From Mycobacterium kiyosense (GTDB lineage Bacteria; Actinomycetota; Actinomycetes; Mycobacteriales; Mycobacteriaceae): a DNA stretch of 64,000 nt. Location of the stretch: assembly GCA_021654635.1 (NCBI GenBank), contig AP025179.1, positions 2,232,001-2,296,000 of the forward strand, read 5' to 3'. Under the pieces are notes generated by a model. The model worked only from the letters and a program-made list of their open reading frames with translations, was not told the origin of the DNA and searched no databases. This document shows positions 18,603-27,699 of this stretch, one piece after another; within the stretch, counting starts at the first letter, position 1, and each line of letters starts with the position of its first letter. The translations under genes and the position numbers were made by a program.

Positions 18603-18676
18603 GGGGCGGTAGCTCAGTCGGTTAGAGCCGCGGACTCATAATCCGTTGGTCGTGGGTTCGAGCCCCACCCGCCCCA
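18603..18676 (+). tRNA. tRNA-Met (anticodon CAT), island integration site
   Basis: A 74-nt cloverleaf: acceptor GGGGCGG pairs with CCGCCCC, the anticodon stem GCGGA/TCCGT encloses loop CTCATAA with anticodon CAT at 18637-18639, and the T arm is GTGGG-TTCGAGC-CCCAC. The discriminator base is A at 18676 and CCA is not encoded. CAT could also be a lysidine-modified tRNA-Ile2, but the sequence fits an elongator tRNA-Met. Its 3' half is duplicated at 27653-27699, marking the target of a tyrosine-integrase element; the gene itself remains complete. Confidence 0.93.
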
Positions 18677-18678
18677 CT
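18632..18678 (+). repeat. attL: tRNA 3' half
   Basis: The 47 bp from the anticodon stem to two bases past the discriminator are identical to 27653-27699. The match ends abruptly on both sides (flanks GC/AAG here against CA/CCC at the right copy). This is the expected core left by site-specific integration into a tRNA gene. Confidence 0.92.
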
Positions 18679-19082
18679 AAGTTTTTCTGCAGCTAGATCG
18701 AATTTTGAAGGTTCGCAGCGTCGAATTCAAACGGCCAAAATGGCTCAGATTTACGCAATTCTTACGCAATCAAGTGGCACAATCAGCGGTACAAAGTCGT
18801 CCCAGCAAACCCGCCCCACGGCACCCGCGATGACCCCCACTACCCGAACACCCGTTCGATATGTGCCGGTCTCGCTGACCCCGCGCTGAGCACTGGCAAT
18901 GGATGTATTGACCCCCTGAGCGCCACGCACAGTCACGAACGCGCCTGCCAGGAGTTGCCACACCGGCCAGCGCCAGACAATCGGCTACTGGTGGCCGATT
19001 TGCGCTCGCAGACCGGGACGCACCTCGATTCAAAACGCGAGATTGCATCTCTCACCCGAAAGACCATCTAACGTATGTCGCT
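18679..19082. other. Island left end, no clear gene
   Basis: About 400 bp between attL and the first island gene. It holds the paired TTACGCAA sites at 18751-18769 and short minus-strand open frames without recognisable motifs. It is probably the regulatory end of the element. Confidence 0.5.
18751..18769 (+). repeat. Paired TTACGCAA sites, left arm (candidate integrase arm site)
   Basis: TTACGCAAttcTTACGCAA: two 8-bp copies with an 11-bp period, about 70 bp inside attL. The same pair, with the same period and orientation, occurs inside attR at 27472-27490. Such short direct repeats flanking the core are typical arm-type binding sites of tyrosine integrases. Confidence 0.6.
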
Positions 19083-19490
19083 ATGTCCACATACCCGGCG
19101 TTCGCCACTGTGCGTTTCAATGGCGTGCTCGCGAACCACCTGGAGTCACTAGAAGTGATGATTGATGAACTCCGCCGAAACGGCGTTGACGGCGAGATTG
19201 CGTACCGCCCATCTGGCGGCAAGGGACCTGGCGTCGTTGAAGTCATCGGCATCTACATAGCCCTTAAAGCTGCCGATGCCACTATCAGCACCGTTACCAG
19301 TACCACCGTCACAGCCGTAATGAATTGGATCAAGAATCCATTTAAGCGTGCCAGCGCAGAGATATCCGACCAACCTGTGACAAAAGACGTAACCATTTAT
19401 GGGCCAGATGATAAGCCGCTCAAGCGAATTAAAGGCAGCAGTGCCGACGATATCGAGGTCACAGACCCTGACGATGCAGCTTCGCCGTAG
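19083..19490 (+). CDS. Small island protein, possibly EACC1-like conflict-system component
   Basis: A 135-residue protein. It starts with a beta/alpha unit (ATVRFNGVLANHLESLEVMIDELRRNG), then a hydrophobic, Gly/Ala/Thr-rich stretch VIGIYIALKAADATISTVTS, a short helix ending in VMNWIKNPF, and a beta hairpin VTIYGPDDKPLKRIKG. This layout resembles effector-associated constant component 1 (EACC1) proteins of bacterial conflict systems; this is recognition by pattern only. Its usual partners (trypsin- or caspase-like effectors) are not seen, perhaps because IS insertions removed them. The stop overlaps the convergent truncated gene by 32 bp. Confidence 0.6.
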   Translation: MSTYPAFATVRFNGVLANHLESLEVMIDELRRNGVDGEIAYRPSGGKGPGVVEVIGIYIALKAADATISTVTSTTVTAVMNWIKNPFKRASAEISDQPVTKDVTIYGPDDKPLKRIKGSSADDIEVTDPDDAASP

Positions 19491-20073: not shown

Positions 20074-21421
20074 CGCTTCTATGGGGGGCTGTCAAGCCAT
20101 GGCGGCCTGGAGTTGCCGGAACAGTGAGCGGCAGACGTAGCGTTTGAGGTTGCGCCGGATCTCTCGCTTGGTTTTGCCGGTTTCCAGTCCCCGGCGTAGG
20201 TAGGCGCGGGTCGCGGGGTCGAAGCTCATGCGGGTTCGGACGATGATGTCGATGGCACGGTTGAGTTGTCGGTCGCCGGATCGGCTGAGGCGGTGTCGTG
20301 TGGTGTTTCCCGATGATGCGGGCAGGGGCGCGATTCCCCCGAGTGCGGCGAATGCGGCTTCTGAGCGGACCCGTCCGTGGTGGGAGTAGGCGCAGATCAG
20401 GATTGCGGCGGTGACGGGACCGACCCCTGGGGTTTGTTGTAGCCCGGGAGCCAGGCGTTGCGCATGCTCGGCGAGTTGGGCGTGGTTGTGGCGCAACTGG
20501 CGGGTTTGCTCATTGACAACGGTCGCCAGTCGCTTGGCTTCGGCGCGGGCAATGAGATCAACTTTGTTGGTGCAGCGGCTATTTCGCCAGGATTCGATGA
20601 TGGCGATCTGCTTATCGGTCAAGGGTGAGCGGGCGTCGACACCGAGGTCGACAGTGCGTAGCAGCGCGGTCAGTGCGTTGCGGTTGGCAGTGCGTTGTTG
20701 GTCGATGAGTGAACGGGCACTCAAGAGCACCCGCAGGGCAGCACGATCACCGGCGCCGCGCGGGTGGGGAACCCGCGAACATTCCTTGCCGAGCACTGAG
20801 CGCGCGGCTGCCTCGGCGTCGAGGGGGTCGGACTTGCCGGCGTGGGCGTGGGCGTGCGCGGATCGTGGTTGTGGGCGCACTTCGCCGATGGGAACGCCCT
20901 GAGCTGCGAGAGCTGCGGTGAGTGTCGAACCGTAGGAGGACGTGCCTTCGACGGCGGCGAAAACTGTGCCGGGAGCGCGGCGGGTGACCCAGGTCAGGGC
21001 CCTGTTGATTCCGGCCGGTGATGCCGGGAAGGTCGCCGTGTCGATCACTGCCCCAGTCTTGGTGGAAACCACGCAGTAGGTATGTGTTCGCGCGTGGGTG
21101 TCCACACCCACGATGTGGTCGTAGGTGTCGGCGATGATTGCCATCGATGAGTTCTCCTCTACTTTGTCTATTTACCTTTCTGAGTCGGCGCCGATGAATG
21201 TTGTTCGCGCAGAGACACATCTGTAATGAGTCACGCCGCCAATGGTGGTGGACAAGCTTCTGATCAAGCCATCTGTGCGGACGGTGTCGACGCCAGCTCC
21301 CCTCGCGGACAGGTCATTTTGAAGACACCGCGATGAGCGGGTCGAATATACCCGGAGTCACACGAGCCGAGCCGAACGTCAACACTGCCAGCCGGCCTCG
21401 GGCCAGCCACCCTCATTACAG
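20074..21421 (-). mobile_element. IS110-family insertion sequence
   Basis: About 1.35 kb inserted at the orfA/orfB junction of the IS3 element: left flank ...CCCAAAATGA, right flank ATGTACCCG. There are no terminal inverted repeats, as usual for IS110. The transposase is on the minus strand at 20092-21144. The 278 bp upstream of it (21145-21421) is non-coding and would hold the bridge-RNA-type left-end region known for IS110 elements; I infer its presence from the family only. Confidence 0.82.
20092..21144 (-). CDS. IS110-family transposase
   Basis: A 350-residue recombinase. The N-terminal DEDD RuvC-like domain shows IVGVDTHARTHTYCVV near residue 12, AAVEGTSSYGSTL near residue 63 and KSDPLDAEAAARSVL near residue 104. 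The C-terminal Tnp_IS110 domain has LQQTPGVGPVTAAILI and AAFAALGGIAPLPASSGNTTRHRLSRSGDRQLNRAI, containing the catalytic serine. It appears intact, so it may be active. Confidence 0.93.
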   Translation of the reverse strand: MAIIADTYDHIVGVDTHARTHTYCVVSTKTGAVIDTATFPASPAGINRALTWVTRRAPGTVFAAVEGTSSYGSTLTAALAAQGVPIGEVRPQPRSAHAHAHAGKSDPLDAEAAARSVLGKECSRVPHPRGAGDRAALRVLLSARSLIDQQRTANRNALTALLRTVDLGVDARSPLTDKQIAIIESWRNSRCTNKVDLIARAEAKRLATVVNEQTRQLRHNHAQLAEHAQRLAPGLQQTPGVGPVTAAILICAYSHHGRVRSEAAFAALGGIAPLPASSGNTTRHRLSRSGDRQLNRAIDIIVRTRMSFDPATRAYLRRGLETGKTKREIRRNLKRYVCRSLFRQLQAAMA

Positions 21422-21833
21422 ATGTACCCGCTGGTCCTCGACCTTGCCGATGACGGCGTACCCGTCACGGTGACCTGCCGGGTCCTGGGGTTCTCCACCC
21501 AGGGGTTCTACAAATGGCGCAAAGCGCCGTTGTCACAGCGCGATTGGGACGATGCTCACCTGATCAACGCGGCCCGCGACATCCACGCCGATGACCCTAC
21601 CTTCGGCTACCGGTTCATCGCTGACGAATTGCTCCGGCACGGGATCACCGCCGGCGAAAACCGTGTCGCACGGTTGTGCTCCCAGGAGCGCATCTGGTCG
21701 ATCTTCGCTAAGAAGCGAGGACTGAATCGTCGATCCGGCCCACCGGTCCATGACGACCTCGTGCAGCGTCAGTTCATCGCCCAGGCCGCCAACCAGGTGT
21801 GGCTGGCCGACATCACCGAGCACCGCACTGCTT

Positions 21834-21931
21834 GGATTCCAGCAATCGTCGCAACACCTATCGGAGGTGATGGCGATGGCTGGCCGGAAGTACAGCAAGG
21901 AGCAGAAGGAAGAGTTCTTCAGGTTGCTTGA
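21834..21931 (+). other. 98-bp foreign remnant inside orfB
   Basis: This stretch has no counterpart in the intact IS3 copy. It contains GTCGCAACACC near 21848, which resembles the IS30 end sequence in this window, and an ATG-initiated frame reading MAGRKYSKEQKEEFFRLLD. It looks like the left end and transposase start of another, lost insertion sequence left by an internal deletion. Confidence 0.5.
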
Positions 21932-22100
21932 CGAGGGCAAGCTCTACCTCTGCGCCATCAAAGACGTGTACTCCAACCGGATTGTGGGCTACTCGATCGA
22001 CTCGCGGATGAAGTCCTCGCTCGCGGTGGCTGCCCTGGATCATGCCGTGGCATTGCGCTCACCGTTTGCGACGATCGTCCATTCCGACAAGGGCAGCCAA

Positions 22101-23560
22101 GGCGGATTCAATCGGTGGTCGCAACACCGGTTTGATGAACCGAGTGTAGGTGGTCGTTGAAGGCTTCGGCGGGGTGCGGCCAGCCGAGCGTTTTGCGTGG
22201 TCGGGTGTTGAGGGTGTGGGCGATCGCGGCGATATCGTCTGCGGTCCACCGGGATAAGTCAGTTCCTTTCGGAAAGTATTGGCGCAGCAGCCCATTGGTG
22301 TTTTCATTGGTGCCACGCTGCCACGGGCTCTTCGGATCAGCGAAGTACACCTGCACCCCCGAAGCGATCGAGAACTGAGCATGCGCCGAGAGTTCCTTGC
22401 CTCGGTCCCATGTCAAGGACCGACGCAATTCTGCGGGCAGCGTGGTGATCGTCTGCTCCAACGCGCCTGCCATCGTGATCGCGCCATAGCCGGCCAGCGC
22501 TGGACCGTTCTTGGTCCGTGGTATCACGCCGTAGCCAATCTCGCGTGGCAGATGGACCAGCATGGTAAAACGACTGCTCCGCTCCACCAAGGTACCGATC
22601 ACGCTGCGCTGCAACCCAATCAGAAGATCGCCTTCCCAATGGCCTGGTACGGCACGGTCGGCGACTTCCGGCGGACGCTGGCTGATCAAAGTCTCCGGGG
22701 TGACATGGGCCCATGCTTTCTGCCGGGTCCGTGCCCGCGGCACCCCGCAACGCGCGACCGCGGCGCAGACAGCCAGCTGACCAGATCCCGTTTGAGCGCG
22801 CCCCGGGTCTCGACATACAACGCCTGATAGATGGCCTCGGGGCTGATCCGCATCGTCTGATCATCGGGGAAATCCACCGGCAAACGGCGGGCGATCTGCT
22901 CGGGACTCCACGCCTGAACCCAGGCCCGATCACCTCGGTGGGGCTTGTTGCGGCCCTTCCACGGGGTACTGGCGGGGCCGGCGACAACCTGCCCGTCAGC
23001 GCCGCGAACGACGCCGGACAGCTTGTCCTGGACGTAGAGGCGCAGCCGCTCATTGGCGACGAGCTTGGCCGTCTTCGGGCGACGGGCACGCCGTTCAGCG
23101 TGCCACTGCGCCACCGAGGCTTTGTATTCCAGTCGATAGGTGCGCGTCGATGCATTGCGGCGCAGTTCACGCGATACCGTCGACGGCGCCCTGCCCAACC
23201 GGCGAGCGATCTCGCGAATCCCGGCACCTTGGGCCCGCCACAACGCGATATCTTCACGCTCATCCGATGACAGGTAACGACCCGAAACAGTCTCTGGTAA
23301 GCGTGGATTCACACCGCCAGCGTGACGGAACCAACGGAACCCGACCGGGGACGACACGCCCGCTTGGGCCGAGGCGTCTTCAGTCATCGCCCCAGCAGCG
23401 ATGGCCGCCCAGAACCTGACCCTGTCCTGACGCCAGGCCACCGTAGGCCGTCCCGGCGAGGGAATCTGCCCCCGATATAACTGGACCGCCCGCTGCCGAT
23501 CTCGCACCCGCACTCGCACACCTCCAATTCGAGGTGTTGCAACGACCAGTTGAATCCGCC
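22101..23560 (-). mobile_element. IS30-family insertion sequence with CAA target duplication
   Basis: A 1460-bp element with imperfect inverted ends: GGCGGATTCAATCGGTGGTC at the left and the complement of GGCGGATTCAACTGGTCGTT at the right, both leading into GCAACACC. It is flanked by CAA at 22098-22100 and 23561-23563. Excising it with one CAA restores the OrfB sequence GSQFRSRK in frame, which proves both ends. Confidence 0.88.
22108..23519 (-). pseudogene. IS30-family transposase, frameshifted
   Basis: The N-terminal ORF (23519 down to about 22775) has the IS30 helix-turn-helix region SSDEREDIALWRAQGAGIREIARRLGRAPSTVSRELRRN and [31 protein letters not shown]. The C-terminal part (22743-22108) has the DDE core [25 protein letters not shown] and [18 protein letters not shown]. 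Between them the family sequence CLRRGRALR is in the third frame, so two small indels near 22745-22790 separate the halves. The protein is probably not made in full. Confidence 0.8.
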
Positions 23561-24269
23561 CAATTCAGGTCGAGAAAGTTCGTCCACGCACTGTCGCGCA
23601 ACGGGTTACATGGCTCGATGGGCCCGCGTGGGAGCGTGCGGGGACAATGCGGCGATGGAATCGTTCTTCGCCCTTCTGCAACGCAACGTGCTCGACCGGC
23701 GACGCTGGTCGACCCGAGCCGAACTGCGCCTGGCAATCGTGAGTTGGATCGAGCGGACCTACCACCGGCGCCGCCGGCAACGCGCACTTGGCAAGCTCAC
23801 CCCGATAGAGTTCGAACTGCTCCACACACCAGTCGCAACCGCGGCCTGAAATTCACAACCCCGCGAGTCAATTGAAGTCGGGGCAGTCCCTTTTTCATGT
23901 TGGTAGCCCGAAGACCGATGAATCTGAGCGGACGGTGCCTCTAGAGCGGTGGCTAGCCGATGACCTACGGAGCTACATCGCCAACCACCACGGCACCTGC
24001 CTAGAGCCAACAGCGCCCCTGTTCCCTGGCCGATTGGACCTGGCCGCTGCCAAAGCTGCGGGCAGAAACGTCAAGGATTCCGCAGACCGATTCGATTGGT
24101 CCAAGCCGCTTGACCCTAGCAACGTCTACAAGCGATTCATGCAGCCAGCGCTAGCCGCCCTCAAGCTACCGTCGGCGCGGTTTCACGACCTACGGCATTG
24201 GGTCTGCTGCACGAATAGGTGACATCTGAGTTGGCTTGCCCAGCATGGGCGGGCTGGAAGGATGTCCCC

Positions 24270-24578
24270 ATGGCAAGGCCCTACCCCCGCGAGTTCCGCG
24301 ACGACGTCGTCCGGGTCGCTCGCAACCGCGATGACGGTGTAACGATCGAGCAGATCGCCACCGATTTCGGAGTGCACCCGATGACGCTGCAGAAATGGCT
24401 CCGTCAGGCCGACATCGACGAAGGCACCAAGCCCGGCAAGAGCGCCAGCGAGTCCGGTGAGCTGCGCGAAGCCCGACGGCGGATCAAACTGCTAGAGCAA
24501 GAGAACGAGGTGCTGCGCCGGGCCGCAGCGTATTTATCGCAGGCCAATCTGCCGGGAAAAGGGTCTACCCGCTCGTGA
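24270..24578 (+). CDS. IS3-family transposase OrfA (intact)
   Basis: A 102-residue helix-turn-helix protein: MARPYPREFRDDVVRVARNR, TIEQIATDFGVHPMTLQKWL and a leucine zipper ARRRIKLLEQENEVLRRAAAYL. The 3' end contains GGGAAAAGGGTC around 24556-24567, a plausible slippery A-run for the -1 shift into orfB. ATG 24270 gives the normal family start. Confidence 0.92.
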   Translation: MARPYPREFRDDVVRVARNRDDGVTIEQIATDFGVHPMTLQKWLRQADIDEGTKPGKSASESGELREARRRIKLLEQENEVLRRAAAYLSQANLPGKGSTRS

Positions 24579-25432
24579 AAGAGCTCGCCGCCGACGGGAT
24601 CCCCGTCGCGGTGACGTGCCGGGTACTCAAGCTCTCCCGCCAACCGTATTACCGCTGGCTGGCCGACCCCATCACCGAGGCCGAACTCATCGAGGCCTAC
24701 CGCGCCAATGCGCTGTTCGACGCGCACGCAGACGATCCGGAGTTCGGCTACCGCTACCTCGTGGAGGAGGCGCGCGATGCCGGCGAGCCGATGGCCGAGC
24801 GCACCGCATGGCGGATCTGCTCGCAGAATCGACTGTGGAGCGTGTTTGGTAAGAAACGCGGCAAGAACGGCAAAGTCGGGCCGCCGGTGCACGACGATCT
24901 TGTCGAGCGTGACTTCACCGCTGAAGGGCCAAATCAGTTGTGGCTCAGTGACATCACTGAGCACCGCACCGGTGAGGGCAAGCTCTACCTCTGTGCGATT
25001 AAGGACGTGTTCTCCAACCGGATCGTCGGCTACAGCATCGACTCCCGAATGAAGTCACAACTGGCCATCCGGGCACTACACAGCGCGGTAGCCCGACGCG
25101 GAGATGTCGCGGGGTGCATTCTGCACTCGGATCGCGGATCTCAGTTCCGGTCAAGGAAATTCGTACACGCCTTGAATCAACACGAGATGGTCGGCTCTAT
25201 GGGCCGTGTCGGAGCCGCCGGCGACAACGCCGCCATCGAGAGCTTCTTTAGCCTGCTGCAGAAGAACGTGCTCGACCGCCGCCGCTGGGACACCCGAGAA
25301 CAACTCCGCATCGCGATCGTCACCTGGATCGAGCGCACCTACCACCGGCGCCGCCGCCAGTCCGGCCTCGGGCGGTTGACCCCGATCGAATTCGAAGCAA
25401 TCATGACCACACCGGCCAGTCAGGCCGCGTGA
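24575..25432 (+). CDS. IS3-family transposase OrfB (intact integrase domain)
   Basis: A 285-residue rve-type integrase domain. The DDE triad is seen in WLSDITEH, HSDRGSQFRS and NAAIESFFSLL, with the usual 35-residue spacing between the last two, and the C-terminal RRRQSGLGRLTPIEFE is conserved. It is probably expressed as an OrfAB fusion through -1 frameshifting, in which case translation enters upstream of 24575 with KRVYPLVKEL. Confidence 0.93.
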   Translation: MKELAADGIPVAVTCRVLKLSRQPYYRWLADPITEAELIEAYRANALFDAHADDPEFGYRYLVEEARDAGEPMAERTAWRICSQNRLWSVFGKKRGKNGKVGPPVHDDLVERDFTAEGPNQLWLSDITEHRTGEGKLYLCAIKDVFSNRIVGYSIDSRMKSQLAIRALHSAVARRGDVAGCILHSDRGSQFRSRKFVHALNQHEMVGSMGRVGAAGDNAAIESFFSLLQKNVLDRRRWDTREQLRIAIVTWIERTYHRRRRQSGLGRLTPIEFEAIMTTPASQAA

Positions 25433-25684
25433 CCGAAACTGTCACCTGATCGTGCAGCAGACCCATTCTTTTGCCGTGAACCTGCTTTCCGCTAGCCCGC
25501 CAGTCGATTTTAAGCGGGTTTCGAAGTGGCTAGGGCACAGCACCTTCACGCTGACTTTGGACGTGTACGGCGACCACATCAATGAGGACGTTTCACAGCC
25601 CGCTGGTCTGGCGCGGCCCGTTGCGGTGCAGTCAAACGTAGTTCCGATGCAGCGACGCAATGCATGACTCGGTAGGCAAAGGCT

Positions 25685-27298
25685 TTATTGCAGTCCGTCG
25701 AAAACGCTCGTATGCAGAATTACTCTTCGGATACTACGCTTGTCTTTGAAAGGAACAAGACGGTCCTCTGGAGCTTGCTTGCCGTCATCAGAATCTTTCG
25801 ATTCAGTGTCATCATCAACTTCAAACAAACCTTGAGGCTCGGCTTTGGTGCGTTTCAGGTCGATGTAGGTGCCGTAGTCAAGTGCATAAATGTTATATCT
25901 TTTGCCGGGATTCTCTTTGTCGCTATATCCCCGAAGAATCAAATGGAGTAACCGTAAATCAAATAGCGTCTGAATCATTGGGTGATCCGCATCGGCCCGC
26001 GAAAGCATGAACATTTTTGTTTGGCGGCTTCCGATGACATCTTGAATTATGCGATGGAGAGCCTCGCGCTGATCGGTGGATAAAGAAGTAGATTTATCAG
26101 TCTCGTACCAATCCCGGGCAGCTTCTTCGACCGAATGCAGGTCGATTTTGGGACGGCCAGTAGTAAGAGCTTTAAAAAACGCCGCGCTGAAGATCCCCAG
26201 AAAGTCTCGTACAACTCCTTCGCCGGCCCTTACAAGTTCCACAAATGTGGCGGGCTCTGTGAACAGTCGCACGCGAAATGATGTCGCATCTTTGATGTTG
26301 TGTTCGGTAAGTATTCCAGGGTCTAGATCTGATGTCACGTGCTTATAAAGCAGCTCGTGAAATACCGTTACCACCTTTTCTCTGTTGCGGTCGTAGACGT
26401 AAAAATCATCTAGGTCCAGATTGGCTGCTATGTCGGCGCCTAACTCAAAGCCGATGATATTGCGGTCAGTATCGGTCAGCGTGAACCGCGACCTATATTC
26501 TAATGAGGCGATTTTGACAGTGATGCGATTTGATGTAAACAAAGATCGACGAATGAATTCTGCAATGAATGGCTGAATTTCGACGGGAAGTGAAGTCCAT
26601 TCGTCGATCAAAAGAATCAAATGGTCAACTTTCATTGCGGCGAGCGTGATATTCAGCTTTTGGTGAACTTCACTAAAAACTAGGCTTTCACGGAGTGCCT
26701 CTTCATATTCAACCTGGCGAGCAGTCGCTTTCTCATGACTATCGGATGCTTTTAAGCCTCCCTCAAGACTTCCGCTAATTGAACCTTTTAAGCTGGCTTC
26801 AAGTCCATCCGTCGACTTCGCAGAGCTGGTATCTTTAATGTTTCTTTTTGCTACGTCCACAGATTTTTGGGCAATGTATTCGGCAAAGTCGCTCACTTCT
26901 TGCAGGCCGGATCCATCACTTTCTGGATGGGTTGCAATATCAAGTAATCGACTTTGGAGCAATCCTAGAAAATCTTTAAATACGGCAATGCACCTATCGG
27001 CAATCGGTCGGGTGGTATCTGTGAATAAGTGTGAGCTCCCAAGTAGACGGATATCAATATACATAGAATGAGATCCAGAATTTTGTTCGAAAGCTTGCCC
27101 TAGTACCTGCAAAACGTGTGTTTTCCCGGTGCCACGTCGACCATACAAGATCTGGTTGTTGTGATTTTCGAGCTGCGGCAGTATTCCCGTTTCGACATAC
27201 GTCTTCTGCAACACTGTCACGTCAGGTTCGCGTTCTGAGCGACTAGCGATACTGCTGACCGCTCGCGCTACACGGGGATCTTCGATAAACGACGCCAC
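25685..27298 (-). CDS. AAA/P-loop ATPase, ORC-CDC6-like, candidate defence cargo
   Basis: A 537-residue protein, markedly AT-richer than the chromosome around it, so recently acquired. The N-terminus EDPRVARAVSSIASRSEREPD leads to Walker A GRRGTGKTHVL (Lys59). A long helical insert at about 105-215, rich in Gly/Ser/Ala around 165-190, precedes Walker B LILLIDEW (227-234). The C-terminal half likely forms a winged-helix-like region and ends in an acidic tail. It resembles bacterial proteins labelled ORC-CDC6 family AAA ATPase, several of which sit in mobile islands; their function is unproved. It is the only full-size non-transposon gene in the island. A role in anti-phage defence or element maintenance is inference. 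The start at 27298 gives MASFIEDPRV. Confidence 0.75.
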   Translation of the reverse strand: MASFIEDPRVARAVSSIASRSEREPDVTVLQKTYVETGILPQLENHNNQILYGRRGTGKTHVLQVLGQAFEQNSGSHSMYIDIRLLGSSHLFTDTTRPIADRCIAVFKDFLGLLQSRLLDIATHPESDGSGLQEVSDFAEYIAQKSVDVAKRNIKDTSSAKSTDGLEASLKGSISGSLEGGLKASDSHEKATARQVEYEEALRESLVFSEVHQKLNITLAAMKVDHLILLIDEWTSLPVEIQPFIAEFIRRSLFTSNRITVKIASLEYRSRFTLTDTDRNIIGFELGADIAANLDLDDFYVYDRNREKVVTVFHELLYKHVTSDLDPGILTEHNIKDATSFRVRLFTEPATFVELVRAGEGVVRDFLGIFSAAFFKALTTGRPKIDLHSVEEAARDWYETDKSTSLSTDQREALHRIIQDVIGSRQTKMFMLSRADADHPMIQTLFDLRLLHLILRGYSDKENPGKRYNIYALDYGTYIDLKRTKAEPQGLFEVDDDTESKDSDDGKQAPEDRLVPFKDKRSIRRVILHTSVFDGLQ

Positions 27299-27652
27299 TT
27301 TGCGGCCCCCTCAACTGTTTCCTGCGAACTGATGGTCCATCGGGCGGAGTTGATTGTAGGCGCAGGGCGGCTGTGTAAAGCGGGCTACGCGCCGAGCATG
27401 TCCGATCTGCCGTCTTGAATGCATTAATCAATCTAACGAACCCGCCAGCAAACCCGGTTTCGCGGAGGCTCTTACGCAATCGTTACGCAAGACTGCACCC
27501 TACCCTCTGACCTGCGACGATGATACAAGTACTCAGATTGAATGCTCTGATCCAACGAAAGTTATTGGAAGACAAGGGATTCAACGTGATCAAAAGAATA
27601 CCCGAAACCTGTTGCGGGGCACGCAGTTTCGACTCAAAACCGCGAGTCAGCA
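27299..27652. other. Island right end: ATPase promoter region and integrase-site repeats
   Basis: The 354 bp between the ATPase start and attR hold the ATPase promoter and the TTACGCAA pair at 27472-27490. A short plus-strand frame from 27520 (MIQVLRLNALIQRKLLEDKG) runs toward attR; it has no recognisable family and I do not call it a gene. Confidence 0.45.
27472..27490 (+). repeat. Paired TTACGCAA sites, right arm
   Basis: TTACGCAAtcgTTACGCAA, same orientation and 11-bp period as 18751-18769, about 160 bp inside attR. Candidate arm-type site for the lost integrase. Confidence 0.6.
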
Positions 27653-27699
27653 GGACTCATAATCCGTTGGTCGTGGGTTCGAGCCCCACCCGCCCCACT
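27653..27699 (+). repeat. attR: duplicated tRNA-Met 3' half
   Basis: A 47-bp perfect copy of 18632-18678. It lacks the D arm and 5' acceptor strand, so it is not a functional tRNA. It marks the right boundary of the island. Confidence 0.92.

Follow-up and report, generated by a model that had tools for sequence, protein, structure and literature searches.

The window analysed here is a stretch of 64,000 nucleotides from the Mycobacterium kiyosense genome (contig AP025179.1, positions 2,232,001 to 2,296,000), which contains, at a tRNA-Met gene, an island of about 9 kb whose terminal gene encodes an ORC/Cdc6-like AAA+ ATPase. The island extends from the tRNA-Met gene (CAT; plus strand, 18603–18677, identified by ARAGORN), its attachment gene, to a perfect 47-bp copy of the 3′ end of this tRNA (plus strand, 27653–27699). 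The two repeat copies, recovered by BLASTN, form the attachment (att) cores, the proximal one at 18632–18678. The ATPase gene (minus strand, 25685–27298) is an uninterrupted frame of 537 aa with a GTG start, occurs as a single copy in the genome of 6,346,450 bases, and is separated from the distal att core by 354 bp (27299–27652). Head-on to it lie two pieces of a tyrosine integrase, both on the plus strand. Piece 1 (23872–24222) reads as far as the HDLRH motif and shares 76% identity with residues 284–379 of an M. neoaurum integrase, and piece 2 (25452–25667), the C-terminus, shares 86% identity with residues 379–443. The N-terminal part of the integrase was not found, as TBLASTN with the integrases of sister islands yields only these two pieces.

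An earlier note on this DNA had described the ATPase as complete, and the family alignment bears this out. The Walker A motif GRRGTGKT spans residues 53–60 with Lys59, the Walker B motif LILLIDE spans residues 227–233 with Asp232-Glu233, and these three residues are invariant in all 28 aligned family sequences, which argues that the frame is not a product of chance. The alignment contains 90 invariant columns, and its 27 other members are 44–80% identical to the window ATPase. Comparison between species reveals purifying selection on the gene, with a dN of about 0.16 and differences at 61% of third positions; dN/dS is not given for the mycobacterial copies because dS is saturated. The protein matches Pfam PF24389 (ORC-CDC6-like) with 52.6 bits (gathering cut-off 27), with a short best-matching stretch (residues 32–66). 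Structure prediction indicates that the fold is of the ORC/Cdc6-type AAA+ class with a putative C-terminal winged helix, and an insert around residues 147–204 is modelled with low confidence. The earlier note had proposed to look for a nuclease or a DNA-binding domain in the C-terminal half; the model can be read as the latter, in the form of the winged helix, whereas no nuclease or restriction endonuclease (REase) domain was detected there by Pfam, NCBIfam or fold search, from which remote forms may escape. Pfam and NCBIfam likewise revealed no toxin domain. In PADLOC-DB 2.0.0 the ATPase has no real match (best E 0.0035 to mad8, 14.9 bits), and sequence searches of the PDB returned nothing relevant for the single protein and nothing at E 0.01 for the family profile.

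The nearest relatives with genomic context, in M. palauense (locus L020) and M. neoaurum (L017, L190), are both 77% identical to the window ATPase and both reside in islands at tRNA-Met. The M. palauense island measures 5.3 kb and ends in a 3′ remnant 89% identical over 45 bp, and the M. neoaurum island measures 12.3 kb with a remnant 93% identical over 43 bp. The distance from the shared GTG start to the remnant is 354 bp in the window, 354 bp in M. palauense and 357 bp in M. neoaurum, the gap being alignable, and the ATPase occupies the same position beside the distal att remnant in the three species. As in the window, the M. neoaurum ATPase is head-on to the integrase. Its island also encodes a Prim-Pol/D5 protein and a capsid-like protein that is 41.6% identical, at 98% coverage, to the capsid of phage Indlulamithi and has matches in 153 of 50,697 phage records; of the four genomes queried, M. 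neoaurum included, none had a tRNA-Met island matched by PF05065 (HK97 capsid). In M. palauense, GajA and then GajB of the Gabija system lie behind the ATPase on the same strand, and no relative of the integrase shared by the window and M. neoaurum was found. Long direct repeats were not found in L017, L020, L023 or L187; BLASTN with the respective tRNA uncovered the remnants in L020 and L017, and no second copy of the L187 tRNA-Ala or the L023 tRNA-Arg. More generally, at least 13 of 61 genomes (our own included) bear a 41–46-bp remnant of the same tRNA-Met, on the same strand, 1.7–84 kb downstream of the full-length gene, which identifies tRNA-Met as an integration hot spot. A second tyrosine integrase in pieces (L017 8647–9558), immediately beyond the tRNA remnant of M. 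neoaurum, suggests that islands may stand in tandem at this gene.

Relatives of the M. neoaurum integrase (E 1e-60) were identified in 20 of 297 genomes of the genus, and sister-island regions were taken from five of them (G224, G223, G163, G010 and G192), of which the 4.5-kb G192 region was left out of the analysis. The islands of G224, G223 and G163 share one architecture, with the tRNA-Met remnant followed by a cargo slot and then by the integrase (broken in G163); the contig of G010 starts at the integrase, so that its slot is cut off. The integrase, a resolvase-like protein and a protein of 305–343 aa form a common backbone, and the capsid-like protein is present in M. neoaurum, G224 and G010. 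The ATPase is missing from these three slots, and their genes are mutually unrelated except for a 394-aa protein of G224 and a 407-aa protein of G223 (55% identical), both of which look membrane-bound. The former is accompanied by a 232-aa protein and the latter by a relative of uracil-DNA glycosylase; each having a different second gene, the two loci (L212 9769–11675 and L213 10552–12462) represent candidate cargo pairs. The G163 slot (L214 10123–12168, in a 5.5-kb tRNA-Met island) holds a 300-aa protein and a DUF4062 gene, whose product matches KpSwz at E 2.6e-51; a preprint (PMC13174449) reports DUF4062 as the antiphage NADase system Swarozyc. A PDB search gave no match for the 300-aa protein of G163 or the 394-aa and 232-aa proteins of G224. 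The slot genes, Gabija included, have a GC fraction of 0.46–0.53, compared with 0.50–0.62 for the backbone genes.

The window island itself is decayed to a lesser extent than had been claimed, namely that every mobility gene around the ATPase is broken and that the ATPase is the sole intact cargo. The tyrosine integrase is in pieces and dead, whereas the IS110 element and one IS3 element may not be, because the IS110 transposase and the IS3 orfB exceed the NCBIfam cut-offs over nearly the whole protein. The transposase of the insertion sequence (IS) IS110 (minus strand, 20092–21144) matches NF033542 with 163.4 bits (cut-off 140), its residues 11–346 covering positions 1–339 of the 343-position model. 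The IS3 element that separates the integrase pieces (plus strand, 24270–25432) consists of orfA, taken from the open reading frame (ORF) list, and orfB (24575–25432), which matches NF033516 with 252.5 bits. Upstream of the integrase, IS3 fragments (21422–23849) enclose an IS30 transposase in two frames (22108–22743 and 22686–23519), a nesting read from the ORFs. The ATPase stands as intact cargo, and not clearly as the only one, because a 135-aa ORF near the tRNA (plus strand, 19083–19490) also appears intact. It shares 70% identity with a 133-aa protein of the G163 island, encoded at the tRNA end there (L214 13453–13854), has no match in Pfam, NCBIfam or PADLOC, and is a possible second cargo gene of the conflict type. 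Its G163 relative adjoins a 341-aa protein (L214 14082–15107) that has the appearance of a trypsin-type protease, with a weak PDB match to SplA (E 0.31). Eight copies of TTACGCAA occur in the window on both strands, four of which form two pairs, one inside each island end: the pair at 18751–18769 (starts 18751 and 18762) near the tRNA and the pair at 27472–27490 (starts 27472 and 27483) in the gap before the distal att core. These pairs may be arm-type sites of the integrase; they are not conserved, with no copy in the M. palauense island and one in that of M. neoaurum. Relics of the capsid and primase genes of the sister islands were absent from the window island in TBLASTN at E 1e-3. Among the matches listed, no relative spans the joint of both island flanks, and the right flank is not adjacent to tRNA-Met in these relatives, so that the search revealed no empty site.

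The strong compositional difference from the host noted earlier is confirmed and proves to extend beyond this island. The GC content of the ATPase gene is 46.7% (45% at third codon positions, GC3), compared with 64.9% for the window, and its GC3 is the lowest of the 52 gene-caller genes of at least 150 aa in the window. We compared homologues with their surroundings at 84 loci, of which L001 (our own) and L002 and L003 (the same places as L020 and L048) were left out; 72 of the remaining 81 had at least 4 kb of flank and were measured. The homologue was below its flanks in all 72 (median −12.2 points, range −2.7 to −31.2), with 67 under −5, whereas control genes of 1.3–1.9 kb had a median offset of +0.8 with 3 of 89 under −5. 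Similarly, at 55 of 69 loci no other gene had a GC3 as low as that of the homologue, whereas 3 of 96 control genes ranked lowest. These observations indicate that the AT-richness is a property of the family and not of the window island alone. Across the measured loci the flanks range from 35 to 75% GC and the homologues from 28 to 66%, and the two correlate (r 0.85), so the AT-richness does not simply reflect recent import from one AT-rich source. As a yardstick, DnaA had a median offset of −3.1 points (9 of 30 under −5), compared with −9.2 (63 of 81) for the ATPase under similar treatment, which shows that a housekeeping AAA+ gene is also somewhat AT-shifted. GajA failed as a second yardstick, with a match in 1 of 296 genomes.

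The family is broad and, at the genome level, very patchy. At E 1e-3, 633 of 7,999 scored candidate proteins are relatives of the ATPase, and PF24389 is present in 115 of the best 120 (our own included; the others 43–88% identical); UniRef or NCBI gives some of the relatives the name 'ORC-CDC6 family AAA ATPase'. For the genome scan the best 80 of 222 relatives were kept. Matches were found in 9 of 297 genomes of the genus, 4 of them near full length, and in 8 of 394 genomes of the class, our own included in each count. The homologues span at least 11 bacterial phyla. Among 72,556 plasmid records 23 carry a homologue, 22 of which are from Burkholderia glumae; in the one inspected, the upstream side has a GajA/GajB pair whose end is about 1.2 kb from the homologue, and gamma-mobile-trio genes lie downstream. 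On an Acetobacter plasmid, a PtuA-like ATPase and integrases are encoded no more than 9 kb from the homologue. At L029 the known pair SIR2-HerA is located about 1.2 kb downstream. Of 10 hand-picked neighbour proteins, 6 gave matches (known-looking pairs or ATPases), and those without a match are a TIR protein of L154, two proteins of L035 and one of L039. The INPHARED phages contain no homologue (0 of 50,697), and predicted phage contigs of IMG/VR provide 11 loci with 27–35% identity. A search of PHROGs with 10 neighbour proteins from 7 of these loci recognised a portal protein (L137, L139), a head protease (L133) and a tape measure protein (L135), and in L132, L136 and L138 only an integrase. 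Homologues also adjoin integrases at a tRNA-Ala (L004) and a tRNA-Arg (L023). Two side observations concern single loci: in three Bacteroidota loci (L045, L034 and L070) a UPF0176/rhodanese-type gene lies no more than two genes from the homologue, and in a Polaribacter metagenome-assembled genome (L050 10004–11262) the homologue is in two frames, through decay or assembly error.

Taken together, we propose that the ATPase represents the terminal cargo of an island, now decayed, that was inserted at tRNA-Met by a tyrosine integrase and resembles candidate phage-inducible chromosomal islands (PICIs), and that it most likely works as a stand-alone protein in defence against phages or other invading DNA, a reading to which we assign a probability of roughly 0.58. 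Its nature as satellite-type cargo is well supported, and a role in phage defence is likely. Because a sister island holds a relative of an antiphage gene in the same slot, the ATPase is a good candidate for undescribed phage defence, and the anti-phage role suggested by the earlier note stands as the likeliest one, in view of the Swarozyc-like DUF4062 gene, the Gabija genes of M. palauense and of the B. glumae plasmid, and the predicted phage contigs. The general enrichment of defence genes around homologues that the note had envisaged was not found. The 143 neighbour proteins of the closer clade together matched 125 PADLOC profiles (E ≤ 1e-15) and the 134 of the remoter clade matched 12, against 100 profiles for 134 control proteins. 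The first set comprises all but the two longest of the 145 genes of at least 125 aa located within 4 kb, and the others are 134 of 265 remoter neighbours and 134 of 288 control genes. Several further results weigh in the same direction. Integrases within 8.5 kb were detected at 9 of 81 homologue loci and in a single one of the 35 control regions (Fisher p 0.28), with a home-made hidden Markov model built from 3 and then 9 seeds that probably misses some. A Pfam integrase search gave matches in each of the 40 homologue genomes that it covered. There is no common partner gene, the largest neighbour clusters spanning 6, 4 and 3 of the 84 loci with crude gene calls, and many neighbours are ordinary genes. 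In a tree of 82 sequences the homologues group by phylum (18 changes against a shuffled mean of 44.8), so inter-phylum transfer is not rampant, and four proteins (P0002–P0005) closer to the window ATPase (79–88% identical) come without visible genomic context. With no family-wide enrichment found, the argument for defence is based on the mycobacterial islands together with a small number of other loci.

The ATPase might instead serve the mobile element, as a replication initiator, a helper of integration or excision, or a factor for island stability. Such tasks are performed by ORC/Cdc6, TnsC and IstB-like AAA+ proteins, which resemble the ATPase in weak profile matches and in fold, and its head-on arrangement with one shared integrase in the window and M. 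neoaurum, as well as the integrases beside the homologue at L004 and L023, would fit. We nevertheless consider it unlikely, since three sister islands with related integrases lack the ATPase, the M. neoaurum island possesses its own Prim-Pol/D5, and the M. palauense ATPase accompanies Gabija where that integrase has no detected relative; moreover, no integrase was detected within 8.5 kb at 72 of the 81 genome loci, some probably being missed by the model, and the homologue lies by head or tail genes on four phage contigs. A role as cargo for fitness or competition that does not involve phage defence, such as toxin delivery or regulation, would place the ATPase in the same slot of integrase-linked islands. 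According to PMC10654092, PEST toxin systems are found by the integration functions of mycobacterial prophages and candidate PICIs, the latter with secreted-toxin cargo adjoining the integrase; such a place is therefore not reserved for defence, a further point against our proposal, and the related membrane-looking proteins, the 232-aa protein and the uracil-DNA glycosylase relative in the G224 and G223 slots could be of this kind. That the ATPase is such cargo appears improbable in the face of its lack of a recognised toxin domain, its DNA-type AAA+ fold, and the two Gabija pairs, the SIR2-HerA pair and the DUF4062 gene that accompany it or occupy its slot.

It is also doubtful that an old family with a chromosomal housekeeping function, in DNA repair or replication control, uses the island merely as a vehicle. 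The ordinary neighbours and the phylum-wise tree agree with such a function, yet the patchy distribution within genus and class, the AT offset at every measured locus, and the homologues on plasmids and phage contigs argue against it. For the preferred reading, a defence protein carried as satellite cargo, the following mechanism may be envisaged. The ATP-bound protein would assemble on invading DNA in the manner of an initiator, as an AAA+ ring or filament whose winged helices touch the DNA, and could, since no nuclease domain is recognised in it, stop the invader by occupying or remodelling its replicating or packaging DNA. It would thereby control competitors of the satellite and give the host an immunity able to outlive the mobility of the satellite. 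As a more tentative extension, this single ORC/Cdc6-like protein could be an undescribed anti-phage or anti-plasmid system, an initiator-fold mimic that occupies invading DNA and rides the tRNA-Met satellite slot, whose AT-richness (a median of 12 GC points below the surroundings) is itself selected, for example by keeping the gene silenced or weakly translated until infection.

These findings give a widespread, unstudied ATPase family a definite location, namely the cargo slot of mycobacterial tRNA-Met satellite islands, in which known and unknown defence-like genes are swapped. The slot represents a small reservoir of candidate phage-defence genes in mycobacteria, which bears on the use of phages against them, and the AT offset, seen across the family, is a quantitative trait in need of explanation.

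Compared with known systems, the ATPase is not undescribed by name, as it belongs above cut-off to PF24389 and to the 'ORC-CDC6 family AAA ATPase' of NCBI; in function the earlier designation may hold, since the open-access literature searched yielded no function for this stand-alone family. The archaeal Cdc6/Orc1 initiators (2qby, 1fnn, 2v1u) share 11–17% identity with it, and the ATPase differs from them in being patchy and non-core and in carrying the insert at about 147–204. Unlike BrxC of BREX and RdrA of RADAR, whose rows tie with many other AAA+ rows, it is a single protein in its island. The NCBIfam model NF053860 'DS41_1_antiphage', which by its name would be the DS-41 of DefensePredictor (PMC13092281), is matched weakly (E ≤ 0.1) by 19 of the 28 family members (best 1.4e-4); the window ATPase reaches 12 bits against a cut-off of 370, a P-loop match as also seen for DnaA and Hda. 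PMC12839542 and PMC10853773 describe ORC/Cdc6 ATPases within BREX and HerA/FtsK capture systems, and in PMC10853773 the Orc/CDC6 family is regarded as a mainstay of conflict systems. The Orc/CDC6-HerA capture systems of the latter are characterised there by a HerA/FtsK neighbourhood and by an REase domain that is inactive and precedes the winged helix. The window island has no HerA, Pfam and NCBIfam find no REase in the ATPase (remote forms may escape), and the 84 loci share no partner, with HerA seen at one locus, L029, beside SIR2. A further likeness is to the candidate mycobacterial PICIs, phage satellites of which the three mapped ones with tyrosine integrases sit at tRNA genes according to PMC10654092. 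An integrase with attL and attR at a tRNA, as in candidate PICIs, is found in broken form with the repeat in the window and whole in M. neoaurum. The window island retains only integrase pieces and cargo and, since TBLASTN found no major capsid gene in it, is at most a degraded relative of PICIs. The M. neoaurum island, with its tyrosine integrase at a tRNA gene, its primase as replication protein and its phage-like capsid protein, fits the candidate PICIs in each of these features.
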